This document shows positions 31,805 through 48,256 of a stretch of 64,000 nucleotides of DNA, piece after piece. Positions within the stretch are counted from its first letter, which is position 1. The number at the start of each line of letters is the position of its first letter. The stretch is from Paraeggerthella hongkongensis (GTDB lineage: Bacteria; Actinomycetota; Coriobacteriia; Coriobacteriales; Eggerthellaceae): positions 1 through 64,000 of the forward strand of contig NZ_PPTQ01000007.1 of assembly GCF_003340345.1 (NCBI RefSeq), given 5' to 3'. Under the pieces are notes generated by a model, which saw nothing but the letters and a program-made list of their open reading frames with translations, had not been told where the DNA came from and made no database searches. A program made the translations under genes and the position numbers.

Positions 31805-31891
31805 CGCAGGGCGTTGCGGGTCGAATCGACGCACTTTCCCAGAATTGACTAGCGCATCTGGACAACGACCGGACATTAGGATAATCTCAAG

Positions 31892-31911
31892 AAGTTAACT
31901 ATAACTAACTT
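31892..31911. promoter_or_regulatory. Inverted repeat at the importer promoter (metal-regulator-like operator)
   Basis: AAGTTAACTATAACTAACTT has 6-bp perfect inverted ends (AAGTTA/TAACTT). It lies between a GATAAT -10 element (31880-31885) with a TGGACA -35-like element 15 bp upstream, and the AGGAGG ribosome site. An AT-rich dyad overlapping the transcript start of a metal-type importer suggests a DtxR- or Fur-family repressor. The regulator is not in this window. Confidence 0.55.
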
Positions 31912-31926
31912 TTAGGAGGTTGTCGT

Positions 31927-33069
31927 ATGCCCAAGCGCATAGTGCAGCTGTCTCTTCTGGCTGCTGCGGTAGGCTTGTTCGCTACGGGGTGCTCTGCGCC
32001 CCAGGATCCAGCTGCTGAAAACAGCGGCGAAAAAGAGCCGATAGTCGTCGTTGACCAAAACGGGGAAGAGCAGCAACTGCCCGGATCTATCGATCGTTTC
32101 GTTACCACGGCGTTGCCGCTTCCCAGCGTGTACGCCGTTACGGGCGAGCCGCTTGACAAGCTGGTCGGAATGCACCCCGGTTCAGCGAGCGCCATCAAAG
32201 ATTCCGTGATGGCCGCTATGTACCCCGACCTGCTTGACGTCCCCAGCAGCTTCGTTCAGGGCGACGAAATCAACGTCGAAGAGCTGCTTGCCCTCAAGCC
32301 CGATGCCGTGATGTATTGGGCCGAGTACGGCAACCAGCGCGACGCCATGAAAGCCGCAGGGATTCCCATCGTTGGCGTGAAGACCCAAGGCGACGGAGAC
32401 GCCCTGGTGACCTTCGATTCATGGGTCGAGATCATGGGCCGCATGTTCGGGAGCACGGGCAAGACGGATGCCGTTGTCGACTACGGCAAGCGCGTGAAGG
32501 AGGAGGTCGCGCAGAAGACGGCCTCTATCGACGAGAAGGACAAGCCCCGGACGCTTTTCCTGTTCAATCACGATGACAAGAAGATCACCACATCTGCCCA
32601 AGGCCACTACGGGCAGGGGTGGATCGACGCAGCCGGAGGCGTGAACGTTGCCTCGGAGCTGTCGGGCACGCCTGCTATCAGCATGGAGCAGATTTACGAA
32701 TGGAACCCCGACGTTATCATCATCACCACGTTTTCCCAAACCATGCCCGAGGATCTATACAACAACACGGTTCCCGGGCAGGATTGGAGCAACGTGAAGG
32801 CAGTGCGCGAGGGCCGCGTGTACAAAGAGCCTATCGGAGTCTATCGCTGGTTCCCTCCTTCGGGTGACGCTCCGCTCATGTTGAAGTGGATGTCCGAAAC
32901 GCTGTACCCGGATCTGTTCGACTACGACATGGAAGCCGAGATCAAGGCGTACTACAACGAGTTCTATTCTTACGATATATCTGACGACCAGGTAAAAGGC
33001 GTTCTTTCCTCCAATCCGGAAGCCGCTCGCGGTGCTGATTGGCAGTACAAGAGCAGCAACACCAAATAG
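31927..33069 (+). CDS. ABC importer substrate-binding lipoprotein (FecB/BtuF-like)
   Basis: A 380-residue lipoprotein (signal peptide and lipobox FATGCS at about residue 22). It has the fold of periplasmic binding proteins for iron chelates, haem or cobalamin: GSIDRFVTTALPLPSVYAV, ELLALKPDAVMYW, IYEWNPDVIIITTFSQ and VREGRVYKEPIGVYRWFPP. TAGGAGG lies 8 nt before the ATG. It heads an operon of permease, ATPase, two nitrogenase-like subunits and a NifH-like protein. The ligand cannot be read from the sequence. The downstream reductase suggests a metal complex or tetrapyrrole that is processed after import. Confidence 0.88.
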   Translation: MPKRIVQLSLLAAAVGLFATGCSAPQDPAAENSGEKEPIVVVDQNGEEQQLPGSIDRFVTTALPLPSVYAVTGEPLDKLVGMHPGSASAIKDSVMAAMYPDLLDVPSSFVQGDEINVEELLALKPDAVMYWAEYGNQRDAMKAAGIPIVGVKTQGDGDALVTFDSWVEIMGRMFGSTGKTDAVVDYGKRVKEEVAQKTASIDEKDKPRTLFLFNHDDKKITTSAQGHYGQGWIDAAGGVNVASELSGTPAISMEQIYEWNPDVIIITTFSQTMPEDLYNNTVPGQDWSNVKAVREGRVYKEPIGVYRWFPPSGDAPLMLKWMSETLYPDLFDYDMEAEIKAYYNEFYSYDISDDQVKGVLSSNPEAARGADWQYKSSNTK

Positions 33070-33084
33070 CTGACCATGCGATTC

Positions 33085-33129
33085 GGGATGCCCGCTGATG
33101 CTTCCGGCAGATGCGGGGCATCCCTTTTT
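33085..33129 (+). terminator. Intergenic terminator after the binding-protein gene
   Basis: GGGATGCCCGC (33085-33095) pairs with GCGGGGCATCCC (33113-33124), with one bulge, and is followed by TTTTT. It lies inside the operon and probably gives partial termination, so that the binding protein is made in excess over the membrane parts. Confidence 0.7.
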
Positions 33130-33152
33130 GCGCAACGTTTGCAAGGAGTTCA

Positions 33153-34163
33153 ATGAAGTTCAAATCTATTCGCTACCAGCGATTGATGCAAGGGGCCCTG
33201 ATCGGCGTTTTGCTTGCGTCGGCAGCGCTGGCCTTGTGCCTCGGGCGTTATGGCATTCCGCTTGACGAACTGCTCTCCGTTTTGGCGGGGCAACCCGTGG
33301 CGAACGAGACGATCTACACCGTGCTGTTCTCTATCAGGATCCCGCGGCTTTTTATGGCCATGATCGTTGGAGCGGGGCTGTCGGTTGCCGGATTGTCGTT
33401 GCAGGCGATGTTCGGGAACCCTTTGGTTAGCTCCGATATTTTGGGCGTATCGGCTGCCGCCGGCTTCGGTGCCGCTCTGGGCATCTTGCTGGTTGGCGAT
33501 TCGCTTGCGGTCCAGGTGATGGCCATCCTGTTTGGATTTGCGGGCATAACCTGCACGTACGGCATGAGCCGCAGAAGAGGCAGGAGCACCGTTCTCACGC
33601 TGGTGCTGTCGGGCGTTATCGTGGGCGCGGTGTTCCAGGCGCTCGTTTCGTTGGTCAAGTTTGTGGCCGATCCGCAAAACACGCTGCCGGCGATCACGTA
33701 TTGGCTGATGGGAAGTCTTGCGGGAACGTCTGTTACCGACGTGATTACCGTTGGGCCCGCCATCATCGCCGGCATCGGCGTTCTGTGGTGCCTTCGGTGG
33801 AAACTCAACGTGCTCTCTTTGCCTGAAGACGAAGCCGTGTCTTTGGGGGTGAACGTGAAGCGTTTGCGCCTTGTCGTCATTTCGGCGGCTACGGTCATCG
33901 CCGCTCTTACCGTTTCGATATGCGGCATAGTGACGTTCGTGGGGCTGGCCGTTCCTCACTTTGCTCGCATGCTGACCGGGAACGACCATAAGTTTCTTTT
34001 GCCCGCATGCGTTCTGGTCGGCGCGGTTTTCATGGTCCTCATCGACACGGGCGCGCGTGCGGCAACGCCAGCCGAGATACCGCTGTCTATTCTGACGGCT
34101 ATCGTGGGAGCGCCGTTCTTCGCGGTCCTCTTGCGGCGAACCGGGGGTGCTTGGAGTGATTAG
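33153..34163 (+). CDS. ABC importer permease (FecCD/BtuC family)
   Basis: A 336-residue permease with 9-10 helices. Family blocks: LFSIRIPRLFMAMIVGAGL, GLSLQAMFGNPLVSSDILG (about residue 85), a coupling region VSLGVNVKRLRL, and FVGLAVPHFARMLTGNDHKFLLP near the C-terminus. AAGGAG lies 5 nt before the ATG at 33153; a longer frame upstream overlaps the terminator. It should form the channel for the lipoprotein-bound ligand. Confidence 0.93.
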   Translation: MKFKSIRYQRLMQGALIGVLLASAALALCLGRYGIPLDELLSVLAGQPVANETIYTVLFSIRIPRLFMAMIVGAGLSVAGLSLQAMFGNPLVSSDILGVSAAAGFGAALGILLVGDSLAVQVMAILFGFAGITCTYGMSRRRGRSTVLTLVLSGVIVGAVFQALVSLVKFVADPQNTLPAITYWLMGSLAGTSVTDVITVGPAIIAGIGVLWCLRWKLNVLSLPEDEAVSLGVNVKRLRLVVISAATVIAALTVSICGIVTFVGLAVPHFARMLTGNDHKFLLPACVLVGAVFMVLIDTGARAATPAEIPLSILTAIVGAPFFAVLLRRTGGAWSD

Positions 34164-34938
34164 GGCTAAATCGGTGGCGTTTTGCTATGCGGGCGGAAGC
34201 CCTTTGTTCCAGGATGTTTCGTTCGAAGTTCCGGCTGGCAGCGTTTTGGCGGTCTTGGGTTCGAACGGCGTGGGGAAGACGACGCTTTTGCGTTGCCTTA
34301 TGCGGTTTCTCTCTCCTACGGAAGGGGAGTTCTTTCTTGGCGATCGGCCGGTACGCGACGTGTCTGCGGCTGATTTTTGGAAGGAAATCAGCTACGTCCC
34401 GCAAGCTCGCAGCATGGTGTTCAGCCATACCGTGCTCGATCTTGTGGTCATGGGGCGCTCGTCGTACGTTGCTTTCGGAAGAACGCCTTCGAAGAACGAC
34501 TACCTTCGTGCGGAAGGTTTGCTCGAGAGCATGGGCATCGCCTCGCTTGCGCGGCGCTCGTGCCATCAGCTTTCGGGCGGGCAGCTGCAGATGGTCCTTA
34601 TTGCTCGGGCGTTGGTGAAGGAGCCTTCTGTGCTGATCATGGACGAGCCTGAATCGAACTTGGACATGCGCAATCAGATCCACGTTCTTGACCTGGTAGA
34701 GCGCTTGGCGTCAAAGGACGGCCTTTCCATCGTCATGAATACCCACTATCCGGCGCATGCCCTGCGCGTTGCCGACCAGGCTTTGCTGATCGGACGCGAG
34801 GGACATGCTTGCGGGCCGGTCAAAGACATGCTGAACCGCCGGAGCATTTCCCAGTATTACGGCGTCGACGCGCAGTTGCTCTCCTGCGTTGAGGACGGGC
34901 GTGCGTACGATGCCGTTATTCCCTTGAGGAGGACATGA
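34156..34938 (+). CDS. ABC importer ATPase (FecE/BtuD family)
   Basis: A 260-residue ATPase of the metal-chelate importer group. Walker A is GSNGVGKTT (about residue 34), the Q-loop YVPQARSM, the signature LSGGQLQMV and Walker B VLIMDEPESNLD. Start choice: GTG at 34156 overlaps the permease stop (GTGATTAG) and has GGGGGTG 8 nt upstream. GTG at 34147 is an alternative that adds three residues. Its end overlaps the next gene by one base, so tight coupling of import and processing is likely. Confidence 0.93.
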   Translation: MIRAKSVAFCYAGGSPLFQDVSFEVPAGSVLAVLGSNGVGKTTLLRCLMRFLSPTEGEFFLGDRPVRDVSAADFWKEISYVPQARSMVFSHTVLDLVVMGRSSYVAFGRTPSKNDYLRAEGLLESMGIASLARRSCHQLSGGQLQMVLIARALVKEPSVLIMDEPESNLDMRNQIHVLDLVERLASKDGLSIVMNTHYPAHALRVADQALLIGREGHACGPVKDMLNRRSISQYYGVDAQLLSCVEDGRAYDAVIPLRRT

Positions 34939-36302
34939 TGAAAGCTCCTTGCCTCGATGCGCAGTCGCTGCCCCCGAAGGGTATTCCTATTACGGAGATC
35001 AAGGTTGATTCCGAAGGGAAGCCTCTCTTGCTCAACAAAGGATCCGATCTGTGCTTTTACTCGCCTGCGACGGGAGGATACGGCATTCCTCGCGTTGCAT
35101 GCCTGGTGCCCGGAAGCCATGTTCTGTTCGTTGCCCCTCAGGGCTGCGGCCGGCACGGGTTGGTGGCGGCGTATCTTCACGGGCGCGATCGCGCGAGGAT
35201 CCATGCCTTGCATGTTCAAGATGAGGCGGTGTCGCTTGGATCGCATCTGGACCAAGTGGCGAATGCCGCGCGCTTCATCGTGGATCGATATGCGCCCAGT
35301 GCCCTTACCATTGTGTACAGCTGTATCGACGATCTGCTGGGTTCGGATTTCGATCTGATCGCTTCGGACGTGCAGGATGCTTGCGGGCTGCCGGTGCAGG
35401 TTTCGGCTATGAACCCCATCAGAAGCGAAGGATCCCTGCCGCCGTTGCCTCGGGCGTTGCGCACGGTTTACAGCTTTTTGGAACCTTCGAAGCAGGGCAA
35501 CGTTTCCTCGTCTTCTTCGGGGGCGGGCGGCCAGCCTGCGATTCTGAACTTGTGCGGCATCTTCTCGAACGTGCATCCGTCTTCGGAGGCCCATGCTGTG
35601 CTTGCTCGGGCGGGCTATAGATTGGCGAACGTGGCCGATTGCGCAACCTACGAGGAGTTCCAGGCGCTTTCGGCGTCCCGCTTGAACTTGGTAGCGCATG
35701 ACGCGGCGACGATCGCGTGCGATTCTTTGCACGATCGTCTGGGCATGGAGAGCCTTCGCTTTCCTCTTCATGTGCTGCCCTCCTTGGTGGCTCGAAGCTA
35801 CGAACGCCTTGAGAAGAAGCTGGAGGTCGCGCTTTCCTGGCAGCAAGCGCGCGACCAGGCCATGGCGGAGATCGGGTTGCTTGCTTCCCGCTTGAAGGGT
35901 CTGCGCGTTTCCGTGGGCTCGTCCCACTTGGCAAGCCCTTTTGAGCTGGCTCGGTTTTTGACGGAGTGCGGGATGAGGGTCGAGTCGGTGTATGCGAATG
36001 CTCTTTCGCGCACGTGCATGGAGCAGCTTTCGTGGTTGCAGCAAAAGGCCCCTCAGATCGTCGTGCTGCCGCCCGAGTCGAGACGCGCTCTGTTCATGCA
36101 CGAAACGGCTCCTGAAGTGGATGTGGCGGTGGGACTGGATGCTGCGTACTACTCGAATTGCACGCAGTACGCCGATATAGGATTCGAATTGCCGCTGTTC
36201 GGCTTTCAGGGCGGTGTCGAGCTGTTGCGCATGCTGGTGCGCCCTTGCGAGGTATCCGATGGGTTCGAGGCTGCTCTGACCAGCAGCAGCCTTGTGGTGT
36301 AG
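34938..36302 (+). CDS. Nitrogenase component 1-like oxidoreductase, subunit A
   Basis: A 454-residue protein that resembles the NifD/NifK superfamily. The N-terminal part has Cys in DLCFYSP, VACLVPGSH and APQGCGRHG (about residues 39, 55 and 70), arranged like the cluster ligands of component-1 proteins. A repeated Rossmann-like organisation follows (AILNLCGIFSN, LKGLRVSVGSSHLASP, VVLPPESRRALF). GGAGG lies 5 nt before ATG 34938; an ATG at 34935 is also possible. It is short compared with NifD (about 480-500). With no nifB, E, N or V nearby, classical FeMo-cofactor is unlikely. It probably pairs with the next gene product and receives electrons from the NifH-like protein. Confidence 0.72.
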   Translation: MKAPCLDAQSLPPKGIPITEIKVDSEGKPLLLNKGSDLCFYSPATGGYGIPRVACLVPGSHVLFVAPQGCGRHGLVAAYLHGRDRARIHALHVQDEAVSLGSHLDQVANAARFIVDRYAPSALTIVYSCIDDLLGSDFDLIASDVQDACGLPVQVSAMNPIRSEGSLPPLPRALRTVYSFLEPSKQGNVSSSSSGAGGQPAILNLCGIFSNVHPSSEAHAVLARAGYRLANVADCATYEEFQALSASRLNLVAHDAATIACDSLHDRLGMESLRFPLHVLPSLVARSYERLEKKLEVALSWQQARDQAMAEIGLLASRLKGLRVSVGSSHLASPFELARFLTECGMRVESVYANALSRTCMEQLSWLQQKAPQIVVLPPESRRALFMHETAPEVDVAVGLDAAYYSNCTQYADIGFELPLFGFQGGVELLRMLVRPCEVSDGFEAALTSSSLVV

Positions 36303-36385
36303 GAGCGTCGGGCATGCTTGTCGCATTGTGCGAAAGCGTGCGCGGCGACGTTTGTTCCAGGGCGGGCGCCCAAGAAGGAGAGCAC

Positions 36386-37609
36386 ATGGACGGGCTTCAT
36401 TATTTCGACGTTCTGCCGGCCTTTGCCCCCGACTATTCGGGAGCGGTGTCGGTTCTGTACGATTTGCAGGGAACCATTGTGGTGAACGGAGCAAGCGGGT
36501 GTCTTGCCAATTGCGCTGGCTACGATGAGCCGCGCTACTTCGAAAAAACCTCGCTCGTGCTTTCGAGCGGGCTGCGGGATGTTCGGGCCATATTCGGGGA
36601 TGAGGAGTTCCTGGAGGAAACGCTTCCCCTCATAGAGGGGCTGCAAGGTTCTCGATACCTTGCCTTGCTCGCCAGCCCGGCAGCGGCGATTATCGGCACG
36701 GATCATAAAGCGGTTGCTGCGGCTTTGGAGGATCGGCTGTCTTTGCCTTGCTTCGCGTTCGAAACCACGGGCATGACCGCCTACGATCGCGGTGCGAGCA
36801 TGGTGATGATGGAGCTGTGCAGGCGCTACGCGAAGCCGGCTCCTCGAAGCGTCGGCCCCTCTGCGAATATCTTAGGGGCGATACCGCTTGATCTTTGGGG
36901 GCCCGATCAGCTTGCCGTTTTACGTGAAGACGTGGAGAGGGAGGGCTACCGAGTGATCTGCACGCTTGGCATGGACTATTCGTTCGAAGACGTCGAGCGT
37001 CTTGCGGAGGCGCACGTCAACGTGGTTGTTTCGGTGGCTGCCCTTGCGTCGGCCCGCTGGCTTGAGCAAGCGTTCGGCACGCCTTGGACGTGCGCCTTGC
37101 CCGTGGGGCCTTGCCGTGCGGGATGGATGGCTCCCGATGGCTTTCAGGCGTCTTCCGATTCTTGGAAAGCGCAGTTCTCGGCAAAGCCTTTGGGCGGCGT
37201 CGGGAATCCGTGCGAACCGGCATGCGGCGTGAAGGTGTTGATTGTCGGCCAGCAAGTATGGGCCAACGCCTTTCGCGCCGGCCTGATGCGAGAGGTTTCG
37301 GGCGCTGACTGCACGGTGGCCAGCTTCTTCGGTATGGACGACGAGCTGATGCTCGAGGGCGACCGGTCGTTTTCAAGCGAAGGTGAATTTTGCGAGCACG
37401 TTGTTGATCGTGGGTACGACGTGGTGATCGGCGATCCATTGTTTCAGGAGGCCATTCCTTGCGAGGTGGCGTACGTGGGCGTTCCCCACGTTGCGGTTTC
37501 CAGCCGCTTGTATTGGACGAATCCGGCGCCCGCCGTGGGACCGGACGCCCTTTCTGCGGCGCTCGCGACGATAGAGCATACTATGGTGCGGAAGAAGGCG
37601 AGTCGGTGA
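36386..37609 (+). CDS. Nitrogenase component 1-like oxidoreductase, subunit B
   Basis: A 407-residue component-1-like protein. The N-terminus has FAPDYSGAVSVLYDL followed by GASGCLANCAGYDEPRY, with candidate cluster ligands Cys39 and Cys43. Further blocks typical of the superfamily are LASPAAAIIGTDHKAVAAAL, PSANILGAIPLDLWG, VCTLGMDYSFEDV-like strands and a final GDPLFQEAIP. The ATG at 36386 has AAGGAG 6 nt upstream and starts right before the conserved block. An in-frame ATG at 36314, with AGGAG 7 nt upstream, would add 24 residues including two Cys. The gene overlaps the NifH-like gene by 4 nt. Confidence 0.75.
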   Translation: MDGLHYFDVLPAFAPDYSGAVSVLYDLQGTIVVNGASGCLANCAGYDEPRYFEKTSLVLSSGLRDVRAIFGDEEFLEETLPLIEGLQGSRYLALLASPAAAIIGTDHKAVAAALEDRLSLPCFAFETTGMTAYDRGASMVMMELCRRYAKPAPRSVGPSANILGAIPLDLWGPDQLAVLREDVEREGYRVICTLGMDYSFEDVERLAEAHVNVVVSVAALASARWLEQAFGTPWTCALPVGPCRAGWMAPDGFQASSDSWKAQFSAKPLGGVGNPCEPACGVKVLIVGQQVWANAFRAGLMREVSGADCTVASFFGMDDELMLEGDRSFSSEGEFCEHVVDRGYDVVIGDPLFQEAIPCEVAYVGVPHVAVSSRLYWTNPAPAVGPDALSAALATIEHTMVRKKASR

Positions 37610-38355
37610 AGAAGATAGCATTTTACGGCAAAGGCGGTATAGGGAAGTCGACCACGACGTCGAACGTTTCCGCCGCCCTTGCAGAGCAGGGCTTCACGGT
37701 CATGCAGATAGGGTGCGACCCCAAGTCGGATTCGACGAAGAACCTGACGGCGGGCGTTCGCATCCTTACGGTTTTGGATGCCATCAAGGAAAAAGGCGGG
37801 CACGTGAAGCTGGAGGATATCGTGGTGCGCAGCGATACGGGGGTGCTGTGCGTTGAGGCGGGCGGTCCTCCTCCGGGTATCGGGTGCGCGGGCCGGGGCA
37901 TCATCGCGGCGTTCGAGCGCCTTGACGAGCTGAAGGCGTTTCAGACCTACGAGCCTGATTTCGTGCTGTACGACGTGTTGGGCGACGTGGTGTGCGGAGG
38001 GTTCGCCATGCCCATACGCGGCGGTTATGCCGAAGACGTGTACATCGTGACATCGGGGGAGATGATGGCTTTGTATGCTGCGGACAACATAAACCGAGCC
38101 GTAGCGGCGTACCGGAACAAGGGCTACGCTCGGGTGCGCGGCGTTATCCTGAACGAGCGAAACGTGAAGGACGAGCGCGCTACGGTGGAGGCTGCCTGTG
38201 CGGAGATGGGCACTTCCCTGGTTGCTTCTTTGCCTCGAAGTCCGGAGGTTCAGCAAGCTGAAGAGCTTCGCAAGACCGTTGTGGCGGCGCTTCCTGACTC
38301 GGCAATGGCCGAGCGCTATCGCAGCCTTGCTCGGATGCTTTTGGAAAGCTGCTAG
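37606..38355 (+). CDS. NifH-like ATP-dependent iron-sulfur reductase
   Basis: A 249-residue homologue of nitrogenase reductase. It has the deviant Walker A YGKGGIGKST (residues 7-16), GCDPKSDST, and both cluster ligands: Cys94 in PGIGCAGRGI and Cys130 in DVVCGGFAMP. All key residues of the family are intact, so it should bind a [4Fe-4S] cluster between two subunits and deliver electrons with ATP hydrolysis. NifH is about 275-295 residues, so the C-terminus is short. The GTG start at 37606 overlaps the previous stop (GTGA), with AAGAAGG upstream. The partners are the two component-1-like proteins just upstream. Confidence 0.88.
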   Translation: MKKIAFYGKGGIGKSTTTSNVSAALAEQGFTVMQIGCDPKSDSTKNLTAGVRILTVLDAIKEKGGHVKLEDIVVRSDTGVLCVEAGGPPPGIGCAGRGIIAAFERLDELKAFQTYEPDFVLYDVLGDVVCGGFAMPIRGGYAEDVYIVTSGEMMALYAADNINRAVAAYRNKGYARVRGVILNERNVKDERATVEAACAEMGTSLVASLPRSPEVQQAEELRKTVVAALPDSAMAERYRSLARMLLESC

Positions 38356-38469: not shown

Positions 38470-38610
38470 GAGCGAACGTGCGGATCATGTTCGTTTGGGG
38501 AAATGCGGGTGAGAATCCTGCGCTATACCAGTAACCGTAAACGTTGATGGCCGGACGACATGCAGGCATGCGTTCGAGCCAGATGAGGCGAAGTCGGAAC
38601 ACCCATCCAT
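38470..38610 (+). promoter_or_regulatory. Cobalamin riboswitch
   Basis: Conserved blocks of the cobalamin aptamer are seen in order: TTTGGGGAA (about 38494), GGGTGAGAATCC (38507-38518), CCAGTAACCGTAA (38528-38540, the B12-box-like segment) and GTCGGAACACC (38593-38603). TAGAAT at 38418-38423 may be the -10, with transcription starting near 38430. No T-tract terminator lies between the aptamer and the ATG, so control of translation is more likely. Genes downstream encode DUF4430 surface proteins and an ECF transporter, which fits cobalamin control. Confidence 0.82.
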
Positions 38611-38641
38611 CGCAGCAAGCCCTGGAAGAGAGGTGCCGACG

Positions 38642-41600
38642 ATGATCGGTCTTCAGTTGGCGCGCGTGGGTACGCGCTCCGTTCGAGAGAGGTCGAACAC
38701 GCCTTTGTCAGCCGTTTCGGTTGCAAGCGTTTCGGAGAGATTTCTAGCTGTACTTCTGGCCGTGGCCCTGGTCGTGTCCCTGGTTCCCGGCATCGCCTGG
38801 GCGCAGCCGGGCGGTGCACACGTTTCGGTTGCTGAAGAGCGCGCTCTTGCCGGGTCTGGCGAATCGAGCGAGGGCGGTTCGACTGGGCCGATGGATTCGC
38901 TGGGCTCGGCGGACCGCACCGAGACCCTTTCGAATGCCGAAGCGGGCGAGCCTTTCGAGATCGGAGGAGGATCGACGGTCGATCGCGGGCTGGCTGGCGA
39001 CGCGGTTCCCTCCGAGAAAGCGTTGTCGAACGAGGATGGAAGCATCCAGCCCAGTGCTCTGGACTCTTTGGAGGAAACCGCATCGTCGGACTCTTCCGAA
39101 CCCTCTTCCTCCCGGGCTGTTTCAAACGTCGACGGCGTACGCGTCAAAACCACATCGGGTATGAACCTCCCCTCCAAGTTGGGCGCGGGTTTGGAGATCA
39201 AGGCATGGGCGTTCGTCGAAGAAGAGGATCCTTGGGGTTGGGGTACGGAAGAGGTTGAAGTCAGCGATTACGCTGGTATTTCGTTTCAGTGGTATCGGGG
39301 CGGTACGCAGGTTTCGTATGCACCAAACGCTTTAAGCTACAAGAATTACGCTCCGATTGATGGGGCAAATGCTCGGACGTACCTTTTGGCCGACGCCGAC
39401 GCCGGCTCGTTCCTCGCCGTCAAGGTCACCTTGGCCAACGGCGTCGAAAAGTGGTCTTCTTCGTCAACTCCCAAGGTCACAGACGGCAAGGCAGACCTTG
39501 CATCGGTCGAGATCGAAGGTACGGCCAAGCAAGGTAACGCCCTTACGGCCATTGCGCATGATGCCGCGAGCGGAACTGCCGTGGAATCGGGCGTCGCGTA
39601 TCGTTGGTTGGTCGGGGATGCGGTTGACGGCGAGTTCCACGAGCTTCCCGGAGCGCGGGGATCTTCGCTCGAGCTCACGTCGTCCGAAGTCGGCAAGTAC
39701 GTCAAGGTGGAGGCGTCGTCTCGCAACGAGGTCGTTTCTCCAGCGGTCGGTGCGGTGGTCGCCGCCGGTTCTGCGGAGAACGAGGCTCGCGTGGCCGCTG
39801 CGATCACGGCTCTCGAAAAAGATGGCTTGCGCGGGTACTATCCGAATCCGAAGTACGGTACGGACTCCAATCTCAACCGCATGATCGAATCGCGCCTGTC
39901 CGAACTCGGGTTCGACGGCGTGTCGACGCGCGTTTCGGCTGCGGCGTTCTCGGGAGTCGACCCGAAGCAGCAAGGCTCCGTCGATGTTTCCGAAGGTTCG
40001 GATAACGGCGCGATCACGTATTTCTTCCTGGCCCCCGATGCGAAGACGGTTTCGTTCGATTATTCGGTGCTGCGGCAGTTCAAACCTACCTATGCATTGA
40101 CGTTTGGCGATGCGACGGGGTTCTATACGCCTTCGCGTGCGTCGTCTTTGGCATGGGACGATGCTCGGGTTCTTGCGTATCTGGAAGGCCAAGCTGCTAA
40201 CGTCTCCCTTGACGAGGGCATCAAGACGGGCTCGATACCCGCGTCGGCCCTCAAGGTAGGTCTTCCTACGGAGGTGCGCGCCGGATCCGCCAAGACGGCG
40301 ACGATTGGCTGGTCGTCGTCCGATTCGGCGGTCGCGAAGATCGCGAACGGTTTTGACAGCGATTACAACCAGACTGCGACGGCGGTATTCTCGCATACGG
40401 CGGTTCCTCGGTCGGTTACGTTGACGGCGACGTACGAGTTGCAGGTTCCCGGTTACGGAAGCGGTCCCGGTGTCTCGTATCGAACGACTTTCGACATGGT
40501 GGTCGAGCAAAAATCGGGCGCTGAAGTCGATGATATCAAGAAGCAGCTTGCGAACGTGCTGAAACGGGCGAAGGTTGTCGATGCAGCATCGGGCGGCAGC
40601 GTTCAGACGAGTGCGGTTGACGGCGATGTGAAGTTTTCGACACCGCGTTCGCTGGGCGTGGACGGCAAGGTGTACAAGCTATCCTACGTTTCAAGCGACG
40701 AGGATTTCTTGAAGGTCAACGGATACCGAGGCGTCGTGACGCGCTCCCTTGAAGGGGAGCCTATCCGTACGGTTGAGGTTTCAGCGAGTTTGACCTACGA
40801 TGGCGTGACCGTCTCGAGGGAGCTGGGGGCCTATACGCTCAAGCCCGTGTCTTCTGACGAGCTGGAACAGGCCGTCAGATTCATGAACGACGCCGCAGCG
40901 GCGTACGGCCAGGCGCTTTTGGGGCAGAATGCTTCTGCTGACCAGGTGACGGTCGACCTCGATGCGTTCATGGAGGTTAGCCGTGCAGCCGACGGCTCTC
41001 TTGCATGGGCTCGTTCTGTCGACCAGATGACGGACCAGGGCGTTGTCCCGGACGATATTCCCGGATACGACCCGATGGGCAGCCAGAAGTGGCGTACGTT
41101 CAGGTCGTCGGACGCCGGCGTGCTTGAAGATGAGATTCTGCGCGTCAACCGTCCTGACTACGATCGCCGCGTTGCGGTCGATTCGGTGCTCACCTACAAG
41201 GCGTACGAATCCCTGGCGGCTGCGCATCCGGAGAATCGTGACCTGCAGTCGCTTGTGAAGCGACCTGTTCAGGCGGAGTTCACGGTGGCGGGAACGAAGG
41301 GCCAGACGGATCCCTTCGTCACGGCGACGTGCTCCATCATAGGCGTGGACAAGCACGGCAATCGTCAGACGTGGGCGGCAGCTGAGCCGTTCACGCTGGA
41401 CAACGGCTCGAAGGCGTCCGGCTTGACCGAGGCGTTGCTGGCTAAGACGGGGATCTCCGCCAACATCGATAGAAAATGGGGTTGGTACCTCGAATCCGTC
41501 ACGTCTCCTTACGATGCGGGCCAGACGCTCGGTTGGGATGAGGCAACCGGAAGGTTCTGGCAGCTGTTCGTCAACGGGTCGCCCGTCACGATCGGCGCCA

Positions 41601-44173
41601 ACGACTGGACGCTGCAGCCCGGCGATAGGGTGGCTTGGTGCTATTCGGCCTCCGGTGAGGAAGCGCCGTCCGATCGCCTGTCGGCGACGTGCTCGGTCAT
41701 CGGCATCGATGCCGACGGCGCCGTCCAAACGTGGGTTGCCGACGTCGCGTATGCGATGCCGGAAGGTTCGACGGCGTCCAACCTGTCCGATCGATTGTTC
41801 GCCGATGCGGGGCTGAAGGTCAAGGTAGACGCTTCGCACGGCTGGTATCTGAGCGAAATCTCCTCGCCCTACGATGGCAGGGCCCTCGGTTGGGACGAAG
41901 CAACCGGAAGGTTCTGGCAGCTGTTCGTCAACGGGTCGCCCGCTACGGTGGGCGCCGGCGGGTACGAGTTGCATGCGGGCGATCAGGTTGCATGGTTCTA
42001 TTCTGCCGATCGGGACGTGCTGCCTGGGCGCGTGGCTGCCGCATGCGAGGTCGTCGGTATGGATATTGCCGGGAATCCCCAGGTGTGGGCGTCGTCCACG
42101 CGCTACGCCATGGTCGAGGGCGCCACGGCGGCTGATTTGACCGACCAGCTGTTTGCCAGGACGGGGTTGAAGGCCACGGTCGATACCGAACGTGGCTGGT
42201 ACCTGAAGGATCTGACCTCGCCATTCGACGGACGTGCCCTCGGATGGGATCAAGGTACGGGGAAGTATTGGCAGTTGTTCGTCAACGGCAGAGCCGCTTC
42301 GGTGGGAGCGAACGGTCTCAAGATCGATCCCGATGACAAGATCGTGTGGTACTACTCGGCTCGGGGATCGTCCTTGCCTGCTCCCGGGGATGTGGTCGTC
42401 AATCCCGATGCGCCTCGACCTGGCTACGATTCGTCCTGGCCTCAATTCGGAAGCGGGTCGGCGATCGTCAACGTTGCCACGCCTGCTGAATCGGCCGATT
42501 TGCTCTGGTCGTTTGACTACAAGGCTGCGACCTCGTCCGAGGGGGTGTCGGATCCCCTTATCGTGAACGGCCTCATGTACGTGGTGTCGGGCGGTTCTCT
42601 TATGAAGATCGACGTTGCCACGGGGAAGGTGACGGCATCTGCGAGCGTCGGAGGCGCGAATCGCTATTTCTGCCGTCCTGCTTATGCGGGCGGCGTGATC
42701 ATCGTCCCGACCGACGATGGTCGCTTGGCTGCGTTCACCGCCGATGCGTTGACGTGCGTGTGGAGGACCGAAGCATTGGATACGAAGGGCGGGAAGATAA
42801 GCTACCAAGCTCTTTCCACGCTCACGGTGAACGGGGACTACGCGTACGCCGGGTTTACGCAGCCGGGCGGCGCGAATTCCACGGGCACGGCTGGCGCCCT
42901 TGCGTGCGTTCGCATCAGCGACGGTCGAGTGATGTGGGTAAACGAAGGCGATTCGTCGAACAGCGGAAAGCCCGAGGGCTACTATTGGGCGGGTGCTGCT
43001 GCATCCGGATCGGATATCGTGATCGGCGACGAATCGGGGGCGGTCGTTTTGATCGAGGGGGATACGGGCAAGGTGAAGTCTTCGGTCTCGCTTGGCGCCC
43101 CGTGTCGCTCGACCATTGTATCGGCTGGCGACGGGAGAACGTTGCTGGCCGTGACGAGCGACGGCGTGCTGCATAAGATCGTTCGCGAGGGCGATGCGCT
43201 CTCGGTTGCGGGCCGCGTTTCGTTTGCTCGATCCTCCACGTCGACGCCCATCGTGTCGAACGGCACGGTGTTCGTGTGCGGTGCGGATGCCGACGGCTAC
43301 GGGACGCTGTCCTTGATCGATCTGGCCGGCATGCGCGTCGATCGCACGGTGGTCGGCGGCCTTGGCGCGGCGCAGGGTTCCCCGCTGGTGTCGGTCCAGG
43401 GCGACGGCACGTACGCGTACTTCACGTGCAACGGGTTGCCGGGCGGCGTGTACGCGTACCGGGTGGGCGATGCCGCCGCGTACGCTTTGTACACGCCTGC
43501 GGGGCCGCAGCAGAACTACTGCACGGCATCCGTCATTGCGGACGAAGAAGGCAATCTGTACTACACCAACGATGCCGGCGTCCTGTTCGCGCTCAAGGGT
43601 CGGGCTGGCTTTCGGGTGACATTCGATTCCACGGGCGGGTCTTTCGTGCCTTCCGCCATGGCGGTCGAGGACAAGCCCATCGTGCAGCCGGCTGATCCGT
43701 CGCGCGACGGGTACTCGTTCGGCGGATGGTTCGTCGATTCGGCGTGCACGCGAGCTTGGGATTTCGAAACGCCGGTCGATGGCGATATGACGTTGTACGC
43801 CCGATGGGTCGCGAACGCTCGCCCGGGCGGTGTTGGCGAATCGGGGAGCGGGCCGAATGGGACGTCGGGTTCCTTCCGGGCATCTTTTGGGGCGCCGGGT
43901 GCGGCTCATGCTCCGCTTATGCGGCAAGCATCTGGCAAAGCTGACGGGCAGGCCGGCAAGGTTGCCGAAGGGACCTCGTCCCTGAACGGGGCGTCCGGTT
44001 CAGGGAGCGCTCGGGTAGCGGAACCGAACGGCGAGGACGCTGCGGGCGCGGCTCGCAACGGCGTGAACCCTTGGGCTGCAGGAGGCCTTATGCTTGGCAT
44101 GGTCGGTCTTGTAGGAGCTGTGGCTTACGGTGCCGTCGCGCGCCGCCGCACGAAGGGCGACGGCAATGCTTGA
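38642..44173 (+). CDS. Giant surface protein with three DUF4430 (transcobalamin-like) domains and a beta-propeller
   Basis: An 1843-residue exported protein. Domains in order: signal peptide (cleavage near AWA, residue 54); Ser/Glu-rich region; Ig-like modules (about 160-880); three DUF4430 domains (about 890-1005, 1014-1130, 1132-1245), each with GWYL, LGWD and FWQLFVNG or YWQLFVNG; a PQQ-like beta-propeller (about 1280-1655); one InlB-type repeat (about 1657-1730, GYSFGGWFVDSACT); a Gly/Ser linker; and a C-terminal membrane span with RRRTK tail. DUF4430 is related to the C-terminal domain of transcobalamin, so surface capture of cobalamin is the likely role. GAGAGG lies 8 nt before ATG 38642. 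Confidence 0.85.
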   Translation: MIGLQLARVGTRSVRERSNTPLSAVSVASVSERFLAVLLAVALVVSLVPGIAWAQPGGAHVSVAEERALAGSGESSEGGSTGPMDSLGSADRTETLSNAEAGEPFEIGGGSTVDRGLAGDAVPSEKALSNEDGSIQPSALDSLEETASSDSSEPSSSRAVSNVDGVRVKTTSGMNLPSKLGAGLEIKAWAFVEEEDPWGWGTEEVEVSDYAGISFQWYRGGTQVSYAPNALSYKNYAPIDGANARTYLLADADAGSFLAVKVTLANGVEKWSSSSTPKVTDGKADLASVEIEGTAKQGNALTAIAHDAASGTAVESGVAYRWLVGDAVDGEFHELPGARGSSLELTSSEVGKYVKVEASSRNEVVSPAVGAVVAAGSAENEARVAAAITALEKDGLRGYYPNPKYGTDSNLNRMIESRLSELGFDGVSTRVSAAAFSGVDPKQQGSVDVSEGSDNGAITYFFLAPDAKTVSFDYSVLRQFKPTYALTFGDATGFYTPSRASSLAWDDARVLAYLEGQAANVSLDEGIKTGSIPASALKVGLPTEVRAGSAKTATIGWSSSDSAVAKIANGFDSDYNQTATAVFSHTAVPRSVTLTATYELQVPGYGSGPGVSYRTTFDMVVEQKSGAEVDDIKKQLANVLKRAKVVDAASGGSVQTSAVDGDVKFSTPRSLGVDGKVYKLSYVSSDEDFLKVNGYRGVVTRSLEGEPIRTVEVSASLTYDGVTVSRELGAYTLKPVSSDELEQAVRFMNDAAAAYGQALLGQNASADQVTVDLDAFMEVSRAADGSLAWARSVDQMTDQGVVPDDIPGYDPMGSQKWRTFRSSDAGVLEDEILRVNRPDYDRRVAVDSVLTYKAYESLAAAHPENRDLQSLVKRPVQAEFTVAGTKGQTDPFVTATCSIIGVDKHGNRQTWAAAEPFTLDNGSKASGLTEALLAKTGISANIDRKWGWYLESVTSPYDAGQTLGWDEATGRFWQLFVNGSPVTIGANDWTLQPGDRVAWCYSASGEEAPSDRLSATCSVIGIDADGAVQTWVADVAYAMPEGSTASNLSDRLFADAGLKVKVDASHGWYLSEISSPYDGRALGWDEATGRFWQLFVNGSPATVGAGGYELHAGDQVAWFYSADRDVLPGRVAAACEVVGMDIAGNPQVWASSTRYAMVEGATAADLTDQLFARTGLKATVDTERGWYLKDLTSPFDGRALGWDQGTGKYWQLFVNGRAASVGANGLKIDPDDKIVWYYSARGSSLPAPGDVVVNPDAPRPGYDSSWPQFGSGSAIVNVATPAESADLLWSFDYKAATSSEGVSDPLIVNGLMYVVSGGSLMKIDVATGKVTASASVGGANRYFCRPAYAGGVIIVPTDDGRLAAFTADALTCVWRTEALDTKGGKISYQALSTLTVNGDYAYAGFTQPGGANSTGTAGALACVRISDGRVMWVNEGDSSNSGKPEGYYWAGAAASGSDIVIGDESGAVVLIEGDTGKVKSSVSLGAPCRSTIVSAGDGRTLLAVTSDGVLHKIVREGDALSVAGRVSFARSSTSTPIVSNGTVFVCGADADGYGTLSLIDLAGMRVDRTVVGGLGAAQGSPLVSVQGDGTYAYFTCNGLPGGVYAYRVGDAAAYALYTPAGPQQNYCTASVIADEEGNLYYTNDAGVLFALKGRAGFRVTFDSTGGSFVPSAMAVEDKPIVQPADPSRDGYSFGGWFVDSACTRAWDFETPVDGDMTLYARWVANARPGGVGESGSGPNGTSGSFRASFGAPGAAHAPLMRQASGKADGQAGKVAEGTSSLNGASGSGSARVAEPNGEDAAGAARNGVNPWAAGGLMLGMVGLVGAVAYGAVARRRTKGDGNA
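41528..41942. repeat. Near-identical 58-bp direct repeats inside the DUF4430 region
   Basis: 41528-41585 and 41885-41942 differ at only 2 of 58 positions, although the flanking DUF4430 sequences are well diverged. They encode the LGWDEATGRFWQLFVNGSP segment of domains 1 and 2. The third domain copy is clearly more different. Recent gene conversion or strong constraint on this segment are both possible. Confidence 0.85.
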
Positions 44174-44945
44174 CCAAGATAAGCTTTGCGACGAGGACGC
44201 GCGACGTGCGACAACTGCGGCTCGTACGGACGACAGCCAGGAGACGCGTTTTCAAGCGTCCGTTGCTCCTAGTCGAGCTGCCCTTTCTGTTCGGCAAAAG
44301 ACCATCGCGGGCATCGTCGGCATTCTGTCGGTGCTTCTCATCGGATGCTCGGCGGTGTTTTTGTACGCATCTCCCGTCGATTCGTCCGCGCCTTCCTCCG
44401 ATCCTGTATCGAGAGAGCAGAATGCAGGGCTTGTCGGTGATGCTGGTTCGGAGGGTTCCGCGCGCCAGAGCGAGGGATCGGGGGAAGGCCAGGGCGACGC
44501 TGCTTCTCCGGGTGAAACCTCCGAGGCCCCTGCTGCTCGAGAACCTGCTCTTGCAGAGGGGGCAGGGGCTTCGGCGGGAGGTTCGGATCTCTCGGGATCT
44601 TTCAAGGAAGAAGCTTCTGGAGGTGGTTCCAGCCAATCGGTCGTCACCGTTTCGGTATATGTGGATTCGTCGGTTGTGGGCAGCCCGGTATCGGGCGGTA
44701 CCACGGCGACCTTTGCCCAAGGGGCAACGGTGTACGATGCGCTCATGGCATGCGGCTTTTCCGTCAATGCGTCGACGTCTCCGTTCGGCATATACGTGAG
44801 CGCCGTCGGCGGTCTGGCCGAGAAGGAGCATGGAGGAGGAAGCGGCTGGAAGTACTCGGTCAACGGCGAGGTTCTCATGATGGCGTGCGACAAGTACGCG
44901 CTGAACGACGGGGATGCCGTTTCGTGGTTCTACGTGACGGGTTGA
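44166..44945 (+). CDS. Membrane-anchored DUF4430 protein
   Basis: A 259-residue protein with a cytoplasmic tail of about 45 residues, one membrane span (IAGIVGILSVLLIGCSAVFLY), an acidic Ser/Ala/Gly-rich linker, and a C-terminal DUF4430 domain (about 165-259) with ATFAQGATVYDALMACGF and a GGGSGWKYSVNG motif. LIGC resembles a lipobox, but the long N-tail argues for a plain membrane anchor. The ATG overlaps the stop of the giant surface protein gene (ATGCTTGA), and GAAGGG lies upstream. It probably receives cobalamin from the surface protein and presents it to the ECF transporter. Confidence 0.82.
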   Translation: MLDQDKLCDEDARRATTAARTDDSQETRFQASVAPSRAALSVRQKTIAGIVGILSVLLIGCSAVFLYASPVDSSAPSSDPVSREQNAGLVGDAGSEGSARQSEGSGEGQGDAASPGETSEAPAAREPALAEGAGASAGGSDLSGSFKEEASGGGSSQSVVTVSVYVDSSVVGSPVSGGTTATFAQGATVYDALMACGFSVNASTSPFGIYVSAVGGLAEKEHGGGSGWKYSVNGEVLMMACDKYALNDGDAVSWFYVTG

Positions 44946-45062
44946 GTTGATGGGTTTCAACCGGACGCCTTTCCTTCTTCGTTGAAGGGGCGTCCGGTTT
45001 CGTGTGCTATCCTAGCTGCTTCGGATGAGGGCGGCTCGGCGATCGAAAGGCGAGGTGGGGCA

Positions 45063-45158
45063 TTGTTCAGTCGGAAGGTTTCGATCATTCTTGCGATCAT
45101 CGCATTGGCTTCTGCGGTGCTTCTGGTCATCTCGCTGTTCTTCACGGTGGGCAAGTAA
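45063..45158 (+). CDS. 31-residue single-span membrane peptide
   Basis: A TTG-initiated small gene in the gap between the DUF4430 gene and the ECF permease, preceded by AGGTGGGG. The product, beginning MFSRKVSIILAIIALASA and ending SLFFTVGK, is one membrane helix with a short basic N-terminus. It lies 13 nt before the ecfT-like start on the same strand. A small accessory subunit of the transporter is possible. The start codon is weak, so the call is tentative. Confidence 0.5.
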   Translation: MFSRKVSIILAIIALASAVLLVISLFFTVGK

Positions 45159-45171
45159 GGGTGCGAGCCTG

Positions 45172-46068
45172 GTGAAAAGAACGGCGTTCGACCTGTTCCA
45201 TCCCGTGGTCGCGTTGGCGTACTTCGCTATCCTGCTCGTCATGAGCATGGCCGCGATGCAGCCCGTGTACCTTCTGGTGTCGCTTGCGGCCGCGCTCGCT
45301 CTTGGCGCGTCGCTGCGCGGCTCTCGTGCCGTCGCTCGCTCCCTTGCATGGCAGCTTCCTCTTGTCGTGGTCGTCGCGCTGGCGAACCCGTTGTTCTCGG
45401 CTTCCGGGTCCACCGAGCTGTTTCGCATCGGAGCGCGGGCGTTCTACCTGGAAAGCTTCGTGTACGGTGCGTGCATGGGCGTGATGCTGGCAAGCGTGCT
45501 GCTCACGTTCTCGAATGCTTCGCGCGTGTTGACGTCCGACAAGATCATGGCTTTGTTCGGCGGCGTCGTGCCCACGGTCGGGCTCATGCTGTCCATGACG
45601 GCGCGCCTGGTGCCCCAGTTCGTTCGCCGCGGAGGTGATATCGAAGGCGTTGCGCGCGCATGCACGGCCGCCCGTCCGATTGCGGCGACATCGCCCGATT
45701 CGACGAAAGGCGCGAGCCGCCGCCTTCGTTTTCGCGAGCACATGCGCTTGACTTCGGTTCTTATGGGGTGGAGCATGGAGGACTCGCTTGAAACCGCCGA
45801 TGCCATGAAAGCGCGCGGTTGGGGCGCCGCCCCGAAGCGCACCACCTACGCGCGCTTTCGCTTCCGGCGCCTTGACGCATGCGCGCTCGCGTTCCTCGCG
45901 GTGGTTGGCGCAAGCGCCGCCGTTGCCGCCTGGGCGGCATGCGCTCAATTCAGGTTCTACCCGTCCATCGTCGGCTTCGCCTCGTGGTGGAGCTACGTCC
46001 CCTACGTACTGTTCGCGGCTTTGCCGCTGGCCATGGAAGCAAGGGAGCGGATTGTATGGAGATCGTAA
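45172..46068 (+). CDS. ecfT: ECF transporter transmembrane component of the cobalamin locus
   Basis: A 298-residue EcfT-type scaffold. It has FDLFHPVVALAYFAILLVMS at the N-terminus, about five helices, and the coupling motif ADAMKARGWGA near residue 210. The basic loop RRLRFREHMRL is between helices. The GTG at 45172 is used because it begins the conserved FHP region; TAAGGG lies 10 nt upstream. It overlaps the ATPase gene by 13 nt. It belongs to the second ECF system of this window and is unlinked to ribU. Confidence 0.88.
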   Translation: MKRTAFDLFHPVVALAYFAILLVMSMAAMQPVYLLVSLAAALALGASLRGSRAVARSLAWQLPLVVVVALANPLFSASGSTELFRIGARAFYLESFVYGACMGVMLASVLLTFSNASRVLTSDKIMALFGGVVPTVGLMLSMTARLVPQFVRRGGDIEGVARACTAARPIAATSPDSTKGASRRLRFREHMRLTSVLMGWSMEDSLETADAMKARGWGAAPKRTTYARFRFRRLDACALAFLAVVGASAAVAAWAACAQFRFYPSIVGFASWWSYVPYVLFAALPLAMEARERIVWRS

Positions 46069-47525
46069 CCGATCAGCCCGCCGTCGAGGCGCGCGGGTTC
46101 TCCTTTTCGTATCCCGATGCCGCGGCATCGATCGGACCGCTTGATTGGCGGGTGTCCGAAGGGGCGTTCCAGCTGCTGGTCGGAGCGACCGGCAGCGGAA
46201 AGACCACGCTGTTGCGCTGCTTGAAGCAGGCTATCTCTCCTGTTGGGACGAAGGGCGGGGCGCTCAAAACGTTTGACATCCCCGTCGAGGACATGGACGC
46301 GTTCGCGGCGGCTTCGCGCGTGGGCTACGTTGCCCAAAGCCCCGAGAACCAGATCGTGTGCGACGCCGTGTGGCACGAGCTTGCCTTCGGGCTGGAAAAC
46401 TTGGGCGTTTCGCAGGACCAGATGCGCCGTCGCGTGGCCGAGGTCGCGCATTTCTTCGGCATCGAGCCGTGGTTCCGGCGTCAGGTGTCCGAGCTTTCGG
46501 GAGGCCAGAAGCAGATGCTCACGCTGGCCAGCGTCCTTGCCATGCAGCCCCGGCTGCTGCTGCTCGACGAGCCGACGGCCCAGCTTGACCCGGTGGCGGA
46601 GAAGAACTTCCTGCACGCGCTTTTCCGCGTGAACCGCGAGTTGGGAATCACGGTGGTGGTTGCCACGCATGCGCCTGAATCCATGGCCTCGTACGCCACC
46701 GATGCCGTGGAGCTGCGCGACGGCCGGATAGAGGAGGTTTCGCTCGATCGCTTCGCGGCGCGGCCGCTTCGCCTTCCGGATGCTGGACGCGCCGTCGAAG
46801 CGGGGCGCCCGGCGCGCGCGGCCGATTCTGCCGTGGCGCTGAGCGACGTGCGCTGCCGCTACGGGCGCGACGCCGATTGGGTGCTGCGCGGCATGGACTT
46901 GAACGTGCGCCCGGGGCGCGTGCATGCGCTGGTGGGGGGGAACGGCAGCGGGAAGTCGACGCTGCTGCGCCTGGTCGCCGGCGTGCTGAAGCCCGAGCGG
47001 GGCAGCGTGATCAACCACCTGTCGTCCCGTCAGGCGCTTCTTCCGCAGGATCCGAAATCCCTGTTCGCGTGCGACAGCGTGGACGAAGAGCTGCGGGAGT
47101 GGCAAGGTTCGTGCGGATTCTCCGACGGCGACGTGTCCGCCGCGCTCGAGCGGTTCGGCCTGACGTCCTGCGCGGCAAGCCATCCGTACGACCTGTCGGG
47201 CGGGCAGCAGCAAAAGCTTGCGCTGGCCAAGCTTTTGCTGACCGATCCCGACTTGCTGCTGCTCGACGAGCCCACGAAGGGCCTTGACGCGCCGTCGAAG
47301 GCCGCGGTGGCTGAGGCGCTGCTCGATCGGGTTCGGGCGGGCGCGACGGTGCTTGTGGCCACGCACGATCTGGCCTTTGCGGCCCTTGTTGCCGACGAGG
47401 TCACCATGCTGTTCAACGGCGAGGATGCCTGCACGGAGCCTGCCGGTTCGTTTTTCGAGGGGAACCTGTTCTACCGACCTTCCGAGGACGCGTTCGCGCG
47501 CCTGTACGAAGGAGGGTCGCGATGA
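46056..47525 (+). CDS. ECF transporter ATPase, two ATPase domains in one protein
   Basis: A 489-residue tandem ATPase equivalent to EcfA1 plus EcfA2. Domain 1 has GATGSGKTT (about residue 45), QSPENQIV, ELSGGQKQMLTLA and LLLLDEPTAQLD. Domain 2 has GGNGSGKST (about 298), LSGGQQQKLALAK and LLLLDEPTKGLD. QSPENQIV is the EcfA-type Q-loop. AGGGAG precedes the ATG. The start at 46056 lies inside the end of ecfT and the end overlaps the S-component gene by 4 nt, so all three are coupled. Confidence 0.92.
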   Translation: MEIVTDQPAVEARGFSFSYPDAAASIGPLDWRVSEGAFQLLVGATGSGKTTLLRCLKQAISPVGTKGGALKTFDIPVEDMDAFAAASRVGYVAQSPENQIVCDAVWHELAFGLENLGVSQDQMRRRVAEVAHFFGIEPWFRRQVSELSGGQKQMLTLASVLAMQPRLLLLDEPTAQLDPVAEKNFLHALFRVNRELGITVVVATHAPESMASYATDAVELRDGRIEEVSLDRFAARPLRLPDAGRAVEAGRPARAADSAVALSDVRCRYGRDADWVLRGMDLNVRPGRVHALVGGNGSGKSTLLRLVAGVLKPERGSVINHLSSRQALLPQDPKSLFACDSVDEELREWQGSCGFSDGDVSAALERFGLTSCAASHPYDLSGGQQQKLALAKLLLTDPDLLLLDEPTKGLDAPSKAAVAEALLDRVRAGATVLVATHDLAFAALVADEVTMLFNGEDACTEPAGSFFEGNLFYRPSEDAFARLYEGGSR

Positions 47526-48256
47526 GCGCTTCGAAAGGGAAGGCGCATCGGGTGTTGGCGGCGCTCGAGGTTCCGGCCTTGGTTGCCGTTCCCTGCGCGC
47601 TTGCCGCGTGCGCGTATTTCGGCATCGAGCAGGGGGCGCTTTTGACCGTGGCGGTCGCCTGCGTTGCGGTCGCGGTGTTCTTCGCGGGGTTCGAGACGTC
47701 TCGTCCGCCGCTTCGCCAGGTCATGCCCACGGTAGTGCTGGCTGCGCTGGCGGCTGCGGGCCGCATCCTGTTCGCGCCCGTTCCCGACTTCAAGCCGGTT
47801 TCGGCCATTTGCATCCTTGCAGGGGCCGTGTTCGGTCGGCGCAGCGGCTTTCTGGTAGGCGCGCTGGCTGCGCTCGTGTCCAACTTCTTCTTCGGGCAAG
47901 GACCGTGGACGCCGTGGCAGATGTACGCGTGGGGCCTGGTCGGGTACGTGGCCGGCGTGCTGGCCGATCGGGGCTGGCTCGATCGGACGGCCGTGCTGTG
48001 CGCCTACGGGTTCGTTTCCTCTTTGGCGTACGGGCTCATCCTCAACAGCTGGTACGTTGTGGGCTTCGTCCATCCCGTGACGCTTCCCGCCGTGGCGGTC
48101 GCTTTCGCCGCTGCGCTTCCCTTCGACGTCACGCACGGCGTTGCCACGGTTGTGTTTCTGCTGGCGCTCTATGCGCCCTGGCGCAAGAAGCTTGAGCGCA
48201 TCAAGCGCAAATACGCCCTGGTGGACGCTGGTTTCAGCACATCTCGTCCATCGTGA
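47522..48256 (+). CDS. ECF transporter S component, probably cobalamin-specific
   Basis: A 244-residue S component with six to seven predicted helices. The typical ECF S block is ICILAGAVFGRRSGFLVGALAALVSNFFFGQGPWTPWQMYAWGLVG, seen here from about residue 95 to 140. The C-terminal 30 residues are basic. It overlaps the ATPase gene (ATGA). The substrate is inferred: the cobalamin riboswitch and the DUF4430 genes upstream indicate cobalamin or a corrinoid precursor. It is longer than the usual 180-200-residue S components. Confidence 0.85.
   Translation: MSASKGKAHRVLAALEVPALVAVPCALAACAYFGIEQGALLTVAVACVAVAVFFAGFETSRPPLRQVMPTVVLAALAAAGRILFAPVPDFKPVSAICILAGAVFGRRSGFLVGALAALVSNFFFGQGPWTPWQMYAWGLVGYVAGVLADRGWLDRTAVLCAYGFVSSLAYGLILNSWYVVGFVHPVTLPAVAVAFAAALPFDVTHGVATVVFLLALYAPWRKKLERIKRKYALVDAGFSTSRPS

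Follow-up and report, generated by a model that had tools for sequence, protein, structure and literature searches.

Nitrogenase-like proteins of group IV without the ligands of the iron-molybdenum cofactor (FeMoco) were delineated by Dos Santos et al. in 2012 (PMC3464626). In their clades (Dhaf_1539/1540, Mlab_1040/1039) the cysteines αCys88, αCys154 and βCys95 are retained and no FeMoco ligand was found; members occur in gut and environmental anaerobes, including human gut species. Some of these members adjoin ATP-binding cassette (ABC) transporters and others hydrogenase maturation genes, as noted at that time for Coprococcus catus (PMC3464626). The present study concerns a DNA stretch of 64,000 nucleotides (contig NZ_PPTQ01000007.1, positions 1 to 64,000; hereafter the window), in which a six-gene operon on the forward strand (31927–38355) joins a FecCD-type importer to NifD-, NifK- and NifH-like proteins (D, K and H, together HDK) with this very cysteine set.

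The locus had been put forward in a first-pass annotation as an undescribed system, a claim overtaken in 2012, when the enzyme family was published along with its proximity to ABC transporter genes. The architecture is thus already known; new is the evidence on what the system serves, namely an iron-type operator, molybdenum cofactor (Moco) riboswitches in sister loci and the extent of importer linkage. With a probability of roughly 0.55, the operon serves iron acquisition, an imported iron complex being reduced by HDK at the expense of ATP and its iron set free.

Importer linkage and regulatory signals

The K alignment was used to scan 84,980 species genomes, and the 80 top-ranking of 93 pattern hits were taken as loci. 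Of these, 79 allowed K to be located and constitute the analysable set; related loci are non-independent and the counts are descriptive. A complete importer (FecCD permease, substrate-binding protein (SBP) and ATPase) is encoded within 9 kb of K in 62 of these 79 loci, with the permease on the strand of K in 58, so that the linkage, whose absence from other genomes was to have refuted the first-pass model, extends well beyond this genome. Importer-linked loci belong to at least seven phyla (Actinomycetota, Bacillota, Spirochaetota, Synergistota, Chloroflexota, Pseudomonadota and Thermoplasmatota), and several of the 17 loci lacking a complete importer are truncated by contig ends. Chance neighbourhood is ruled out, since the window genome (2.86 Mb) harbours just six FecCD genes above cut-off. 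Neighbourhoods were compared by targeted layouts, as clustering of neighbours was swamped by antisense open reading frames (ORFs).

The operon is preceded by a palindrome of the form GTTA-N8-TAAC, which is kept in Paraeggerthella and predicted to represent the operator of a DtxR-type iron repressor; genes of the DtxR family exist in the window genome. Allowing at most one mismatch, GTTANNTATANNTAAC occurs at seven sites in this genome compared to none for the reversed control, and several of the sites precede genes for ABC-exporter-type transporters, Trep_Strep energy-coupling factor (ECF) transporters and AraC regulators, a set typical of siderophore uptake. At up to three mismatches the signal weakens (10 sites versus 8 controls), and only near-perfect sites were therefore trusted. 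Among the relatives, 35 copies of a strict box, GTTAG-N6-CTAAC, were detected within 185 kb of DNA preceding the module genes (none for the reversed control, 0–2 per shuffle in 20 shuffles). The box lies upstream of the module in 23 of the 79 loci, from Bacillota and Spirochaetota, and directly before H in 20 loci; near-matches in Actinomycetota are those of the window and of one further locus (L051). Other strict-box sites in Christensenella, 1XD42-54 and a Lachnospiraceae genome precede feoA, feoB and genes for an iron-dependent repressor, flavodoxin, AraC and paired ABC proteins, which by content is an iron regulon. Because it marks feoA, feoB, DtxR-type repressor and flavodoxin genes, the box is probably an iron operator, and the near-identity of the window motif strengthens the case that the window operon would be controlled by iron starvation. 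In three loci (L226, L229, L055), genes for DUF3793- and DUF2325-like proteins stand under an iron-type box, beside flavodoxin or heading the HDK operon; these proteins may belong to the iron-starvation response.

A different signal marks a subclade whose operons (L073, L084, L097, L105) join the FecCD importer and HDK to a moeA paralog. The Rfam Moco (molybdenum/tungsten) riboswitch is located just before the first gene in L073, L084 and L097, and L105 carries it in the divergent region; the scores are 49–77 bits against a cut-off of 36. In the Rfam scan of the relatives (31 of them scanned for cobalamin riboswitches), it was found in the moeA subclade only and nothing was detected before other modules. 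DUF4213 heavy-metal-chelation genes were observed in L104 and L110. In the permease tree, the moeA/Moco loci group together and the loci with iron or Fur boxes elsewhere; the window permease falls into a set supported at 99 that contains two Fur-box loci, its nearest rows being Fur-box and Lachnospiraceae HDK-linked permeases. The importer type hence varies along with the metal signal while HDK stays constant, which argues that HDK acts on whichever metal complex is imported rather than on one fixed organic substrate.

Several neighbourhoods deviate from this layout. Four loci (Selenomonas, Clostridiales) sit within hyp genes. Nitrogenase-like genes are embedded in [NiFe]-hydrogenase maturation operons of the order H-D-K-hypF-(hypD)-hypE-D2-K2 in L044–L049, L088, L093, L096 and L124, D2 and K2 forming a separate sub-branch in the tree; a role of this HDK in making the carbon monoxide/cyanide ligand of iron or in loading metal is a testable possibility. 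A Dpp/Nik-type importer with SBP_bac_5 takes the place of FecCD in L054 and L064, and HDK of L099 neighbours an unrelated ABC system and ADP-ribosylglycohydrolases. In L115–L130 (Lachnospiraceae and relatives) a conserved trio follows the importer, comprising an SBP_bac_6 protein, a CobW-like GTPase and an ABC-type ATPase. The anaerobe Cellulosilyticum (L059) carries a cytochrome P450 gene (11234–12490) immediately after K and no FecCD importer within 9 kb. Visual inspection of the surroundings of the proteobacterial loci turned up no recognisable outer-membrane receptor, a model search for it not having been made.

Gene content, cluster ligands and kinship

All six operon proteins match their Pfam families far above the cut-offs (Table 1), the three importer families included, in agreement with the importer-reductase operon described in the first-pass annotation; the start given there (31876) falls into intergenic DNA ahead of the operator. 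The genes overlap by 17 (FecCD/ATPase), 4 (ATPase/D) and 4 bases (K/H). For K, the ATG at 36386 has a ribosome-binding site, and the mechanical ORF begins earlier, at 36158. The same operon is present in Paraeggerthella hongkongensis, the closest named relative, with 93–98 % protein identity, which excludes an assembly accident.

Table 1 Features of the operon and its leader region in the window
Feature	Position	Strand	Basis
Palindrome GTTAACTATAACTAAC, predicted operator of DtxR-type iron repressor	31894..31909		motif counts, conservation
Ribosome-binding site TAGGAGG of first gene	31912..31918	+	direct sequence reading
Substrate-binding lipoprotein (SBP), FecCD-type importer	31927..33069	+	PF01497 (Peripla_BP_2) 2.8e-24; lipobox Cys22
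FecCD-type permease	33153..34163, likely start ATG 33153	+	PF01032 (FecCD) 2.8e-83
Importer ATPase	34147..34938, GTG start	+	PF00005 (ABC_tran) 8.6e-31
NifD-like component (D), Cys71 and Cys130	34935..36302	+	PF00148 (Oxidored_nitro) 6.6e-24
NifK-like component (K), Cys39	36386..37609	+	PF00148 (Oxidored_nitro) 8.2e-23
NifH-like ATP-dependent reductase (H), Cys94 and Cys130	37606..38355, GTG start	+	PF00142 (Fer4_NifH) 8.3e-92

Two PF00148 genes and a single full-length nifH homologue were identified in the window genome, all of them inside the operon. The reported lack of cofactor-assembly genes accordingly holds for nifE and nifN, as the PF00148 search of the genome returned D and K and no third gene. 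H contains the Walker A motif GKGGIGKST and both cysteines at the positions named beforehand. Across 33 sequences, two cysteines of D (71 and 130) and one of K (Cys39) are invariant, and in the profile alignment their counterparts are NifD Cys88 and Cys154 and NifK Cys95, respectively. Three of the six P-cluster cysteines are thereby kept, and this set (a88, a154 and b95 only) is the pattern of the clade of 2012. No cysteine occupies the position equivalent to the FeMoco ligand Cys275 in the hhalign comparison of D with NifD, an alignment that stops short of the His442 region.

The tree was built with references for NifDKEN, BchNBYZ and CfbD, which were taken from named relatives and assigned by means of NCBIfam, together with three additional pairs of archaeal origin; Mar proteins were compared by structure and sequence search only and are absent from it. 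All D sequences form one clade and all K sequences another (99 and 100, respectively, in the Shimodaira-Hasegawa-like approximate likelihood-ratio test, SH-aLRT). Both are clearly separated from Nif, Bch, Cfb and the other group IV references, so that D and K belong to none of the characterised clades in the tree; how the families are ordered is uncertain due to the long reference branches. The relative from a Desulfitobacterium metagenome-assembled genome (L084) falls into the clade of the window. The H tree, poorly resolved and with CfbC inside, was not used for placement.

In line with this separation, none of the NCBIfam equivalogs was reached by D, K or H: the BchB model gave 26.5 and 35 bits (cut-off 490) and BchN 24 (cut-off 420), no operon protein matched BchY or BchZ at E ≤ 0.01, and the CfbD model TIGR03282 had no match, the hhalign comparison with CfbD being weak as well (Prob 9 %). 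The AlphaFold single-chain model of K (predicted template-modelling score, pTM, 0.85) has its best fold match in BchB of dark-operative protochlorophyllide oxidoreductase (DPOR; TM 0.71), that of D (pTM 0.86) in NifEN, followed by other nitrogenase component 1 chains. The closest relatives of the SBP in the PDB are 4ovk (7e-62) and 3psa/HI_1472. It is conserved with HDK-linked SBPs; its conserved residues (Trp166, Trp232, Trp259, Glu118, Glu254, Tyr306) did not reveal the class of ligand.

Upstream, the operon is neighboured by a MacB-like exporter permease ending at 31804. Downstream, a separate operon follows an adenosylcobalamin (AdoCbl)-II-like riboswitch (38487–38561; 33.2 bits against a gathering score of 36.5) and encodes, within 38633–48256, a surface protein of 1846 amino acids whose domains are repeated, a secreted protein of smaller size and the T, A and S components of an ECF transporter. 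Riboswitch and genes together probably constitute a corrinoid uptake operon.

Proposed function and its alternatives

NifH-like proteins deliver ATP-gated electrons of low potential; in partners of the DPOR type, the substrate is bound directly next to a [4Fe-4S] cluster. In the simplest model, scarcity of iron would cause a DtxR-type repressor to leave the predicted operator, allowing the operon to be expressed. The lipoprotein would capture an iron complex and the FecCD/ATPase pair bring it into the cell, whereupon H would spend ATP to drive low-potential electrons via one [4Fe-4S] cluster, presumably held by D-Cys71, D-Cys130, K-Cys39 and a fourth ligand. Held directly in the cavity of DK, the complex would receive these electrons at its metal or its organic part, and iron would be freed; sister operons may do the same for molybdenum or tungsten. 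The best fold match of K is in favour of this reading, BchB being a direct binder of organic substrate. Of the cargoes suggested in the first-pass annotation, metallophore (siderophore) and haem both fit the iron-type operator; a corrinoid is disfavoured, as no cobalamin riboswitch lies ahead of the operon. The cost in ATP would be justified for either, given the very negative potentials of catecholate siderophores and the need to attack the ring in the case of haem. A generalisation, according to which a widespread nitrogenase-like class strips iron (molybdenum or tungsten in the sister group) from imported chelates too hard for ordinary reductases, is tentative, its odds lying slightly short of even.

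Several points weigh against a function in iron release. One of the ten fixed positions of the strict box is not matched by the window copy, and about half of the importer-type loci gave no box and no riboswitch in the searches made. Of 73 upstream regions scanned for a Fur box, 4 reached p ≤ 0.05, which is about chance, and Fur-like boxes are therefore cited for single loci only (L056, L063 and L114), where they favour the iron reading. Simple iron release is no obvious fit for the sister groups linked with hydrogenase maturation or a Dpp-type importer. Moreover, the cytoplasmic siderophore reductases known to us need no ATP, and we know of no nitrogenase relative for which release of iron from an imported complex has been shown.

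The main rival, rather improbable by comparison, is an anaerobic breakdown of haem, in which imported haem would have its porphyrin ring reduced by DK, yielding a labile ring and released iron. It would also account for the iron-type operator and for the closeness of K to BchB, and characterised nitrogenase relatives without FeMoco (DPOR, chlorophyllide a oxidoreductase (COR) and CfbCD) act on tetrapyrroles (PMC11423573). The SBP weakly matches the haem-binding IsdE (5.5e-8, below cut-off), a match no better, however, than that to BtuF; in addition, none of the genes seen in the loci is specific to haem, and the sister loci with Moco riboswitches are left unexplained.

Less probable still for the window operon is a metal-cofactor assembly machine, the importer supplying metal to DK as a NifEN-like scaffold on which the cofactor of another enzyme would be built. 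Such a role was suggested by Dos Santos et al. 2012 (PMC3464626) and agrees with NifEN as best fold match of D and with sister loci containing moeA, Moco riboswitches or hypF/D/E, for which groups it is possible. The iron-box operons, in contrast, show neither client metalloenzyme nor assembly gene, the regulon of the box comprises uptake and iron sparing, and FeMoco-type ligands are lost.

Import and reduction of a corrinoid or another non-iron tetrapyrrole is a long shot: BtuCD belongs among the FecCD importers and the AdoCbl-II-like riboswitch lies close downstream, but the latter precedes the next operon and was not used as evidence on the substrate, no cobalamin riboswitch was detected before the HDK modules of the 31 relatives scanned, and the operator is of the iron type. 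A nitrogenase or a C-S reductase of the methylthio-alkane or isethionate type shares the superfamily and the H protein with the operon, yet is very unlikely in view of the missing Cys275 equivalent, the three of six P-cluster cysteines, the lack of nifEN in the genome and the clade separate from Nif.

Most branches of the nitrogenase superfamily are without known function, and if iron is indeed released by HDK, one widespread branch would gain a role in metal acquisition, human gut bacteria included, and strict anaerobes could unload catecholate siderophores or haem by means of electrons of very low potential. Iron operator and Moco riboswitch provide two regulatory marks that render the question directly testable. 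In the literature searched, mostly without subscription journals, no prior functional claim was found linking nitrogenase-like proteins to iron limitation, the CO ligand of hydrogenase or DUF4213.

Comparison with known systems

With the clades of Dos Santos et al. the window system shares the cysteines, the lack of a FeMoco ligand and the co-location with ABC genes; neither a function nor a regulator was given there (PMC3464626). Like DPOR and COR (BchLNB, BchXYZ), it is a three-component, ATP-driven reductase by composition, with a [4Fe-4S]-type cysteine set and a K fold nearest to BchB. It differs from them in scores far under the BchN and BchB cut-offs, a separate clade, the lack of an adjoining chlorophyll pathway and the importer within the operon. 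CfbCD of F430 biosynthesis has an H protein of the same group and D keeps the same two cysteines, but CfbD is a single-subunit homodimer as opposed to D plus K, and no F430 genes stand beside the window operon.

MarHDK, IsrHDK and NfaHDK likewise consist of group IV H, D and K proteins, and IsrHDK is also found beside ABC importers (PMC11423573). The methylthio-alkane reductase, however, possesses large metalloclusters of the nitrogenase type (PMC12552129), whereas the window system lacks Cys275 along with half of the cysteines of the P-cluster; the radical SAM partner B of Mar, Isr and Nfa is not among the six operon genes, a dedicated genome search not having been made. Finally, the SBP, permease and ATPase families are those of FecCD/BtuCD-type importers, and the operator is common to feoAB and siderophore-type genes as in DtxR-type iron regulons. 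What sets the window importer apart is its co-transcription with a nitrogenase-like reductase in place of a flavin reductase or an esterase.

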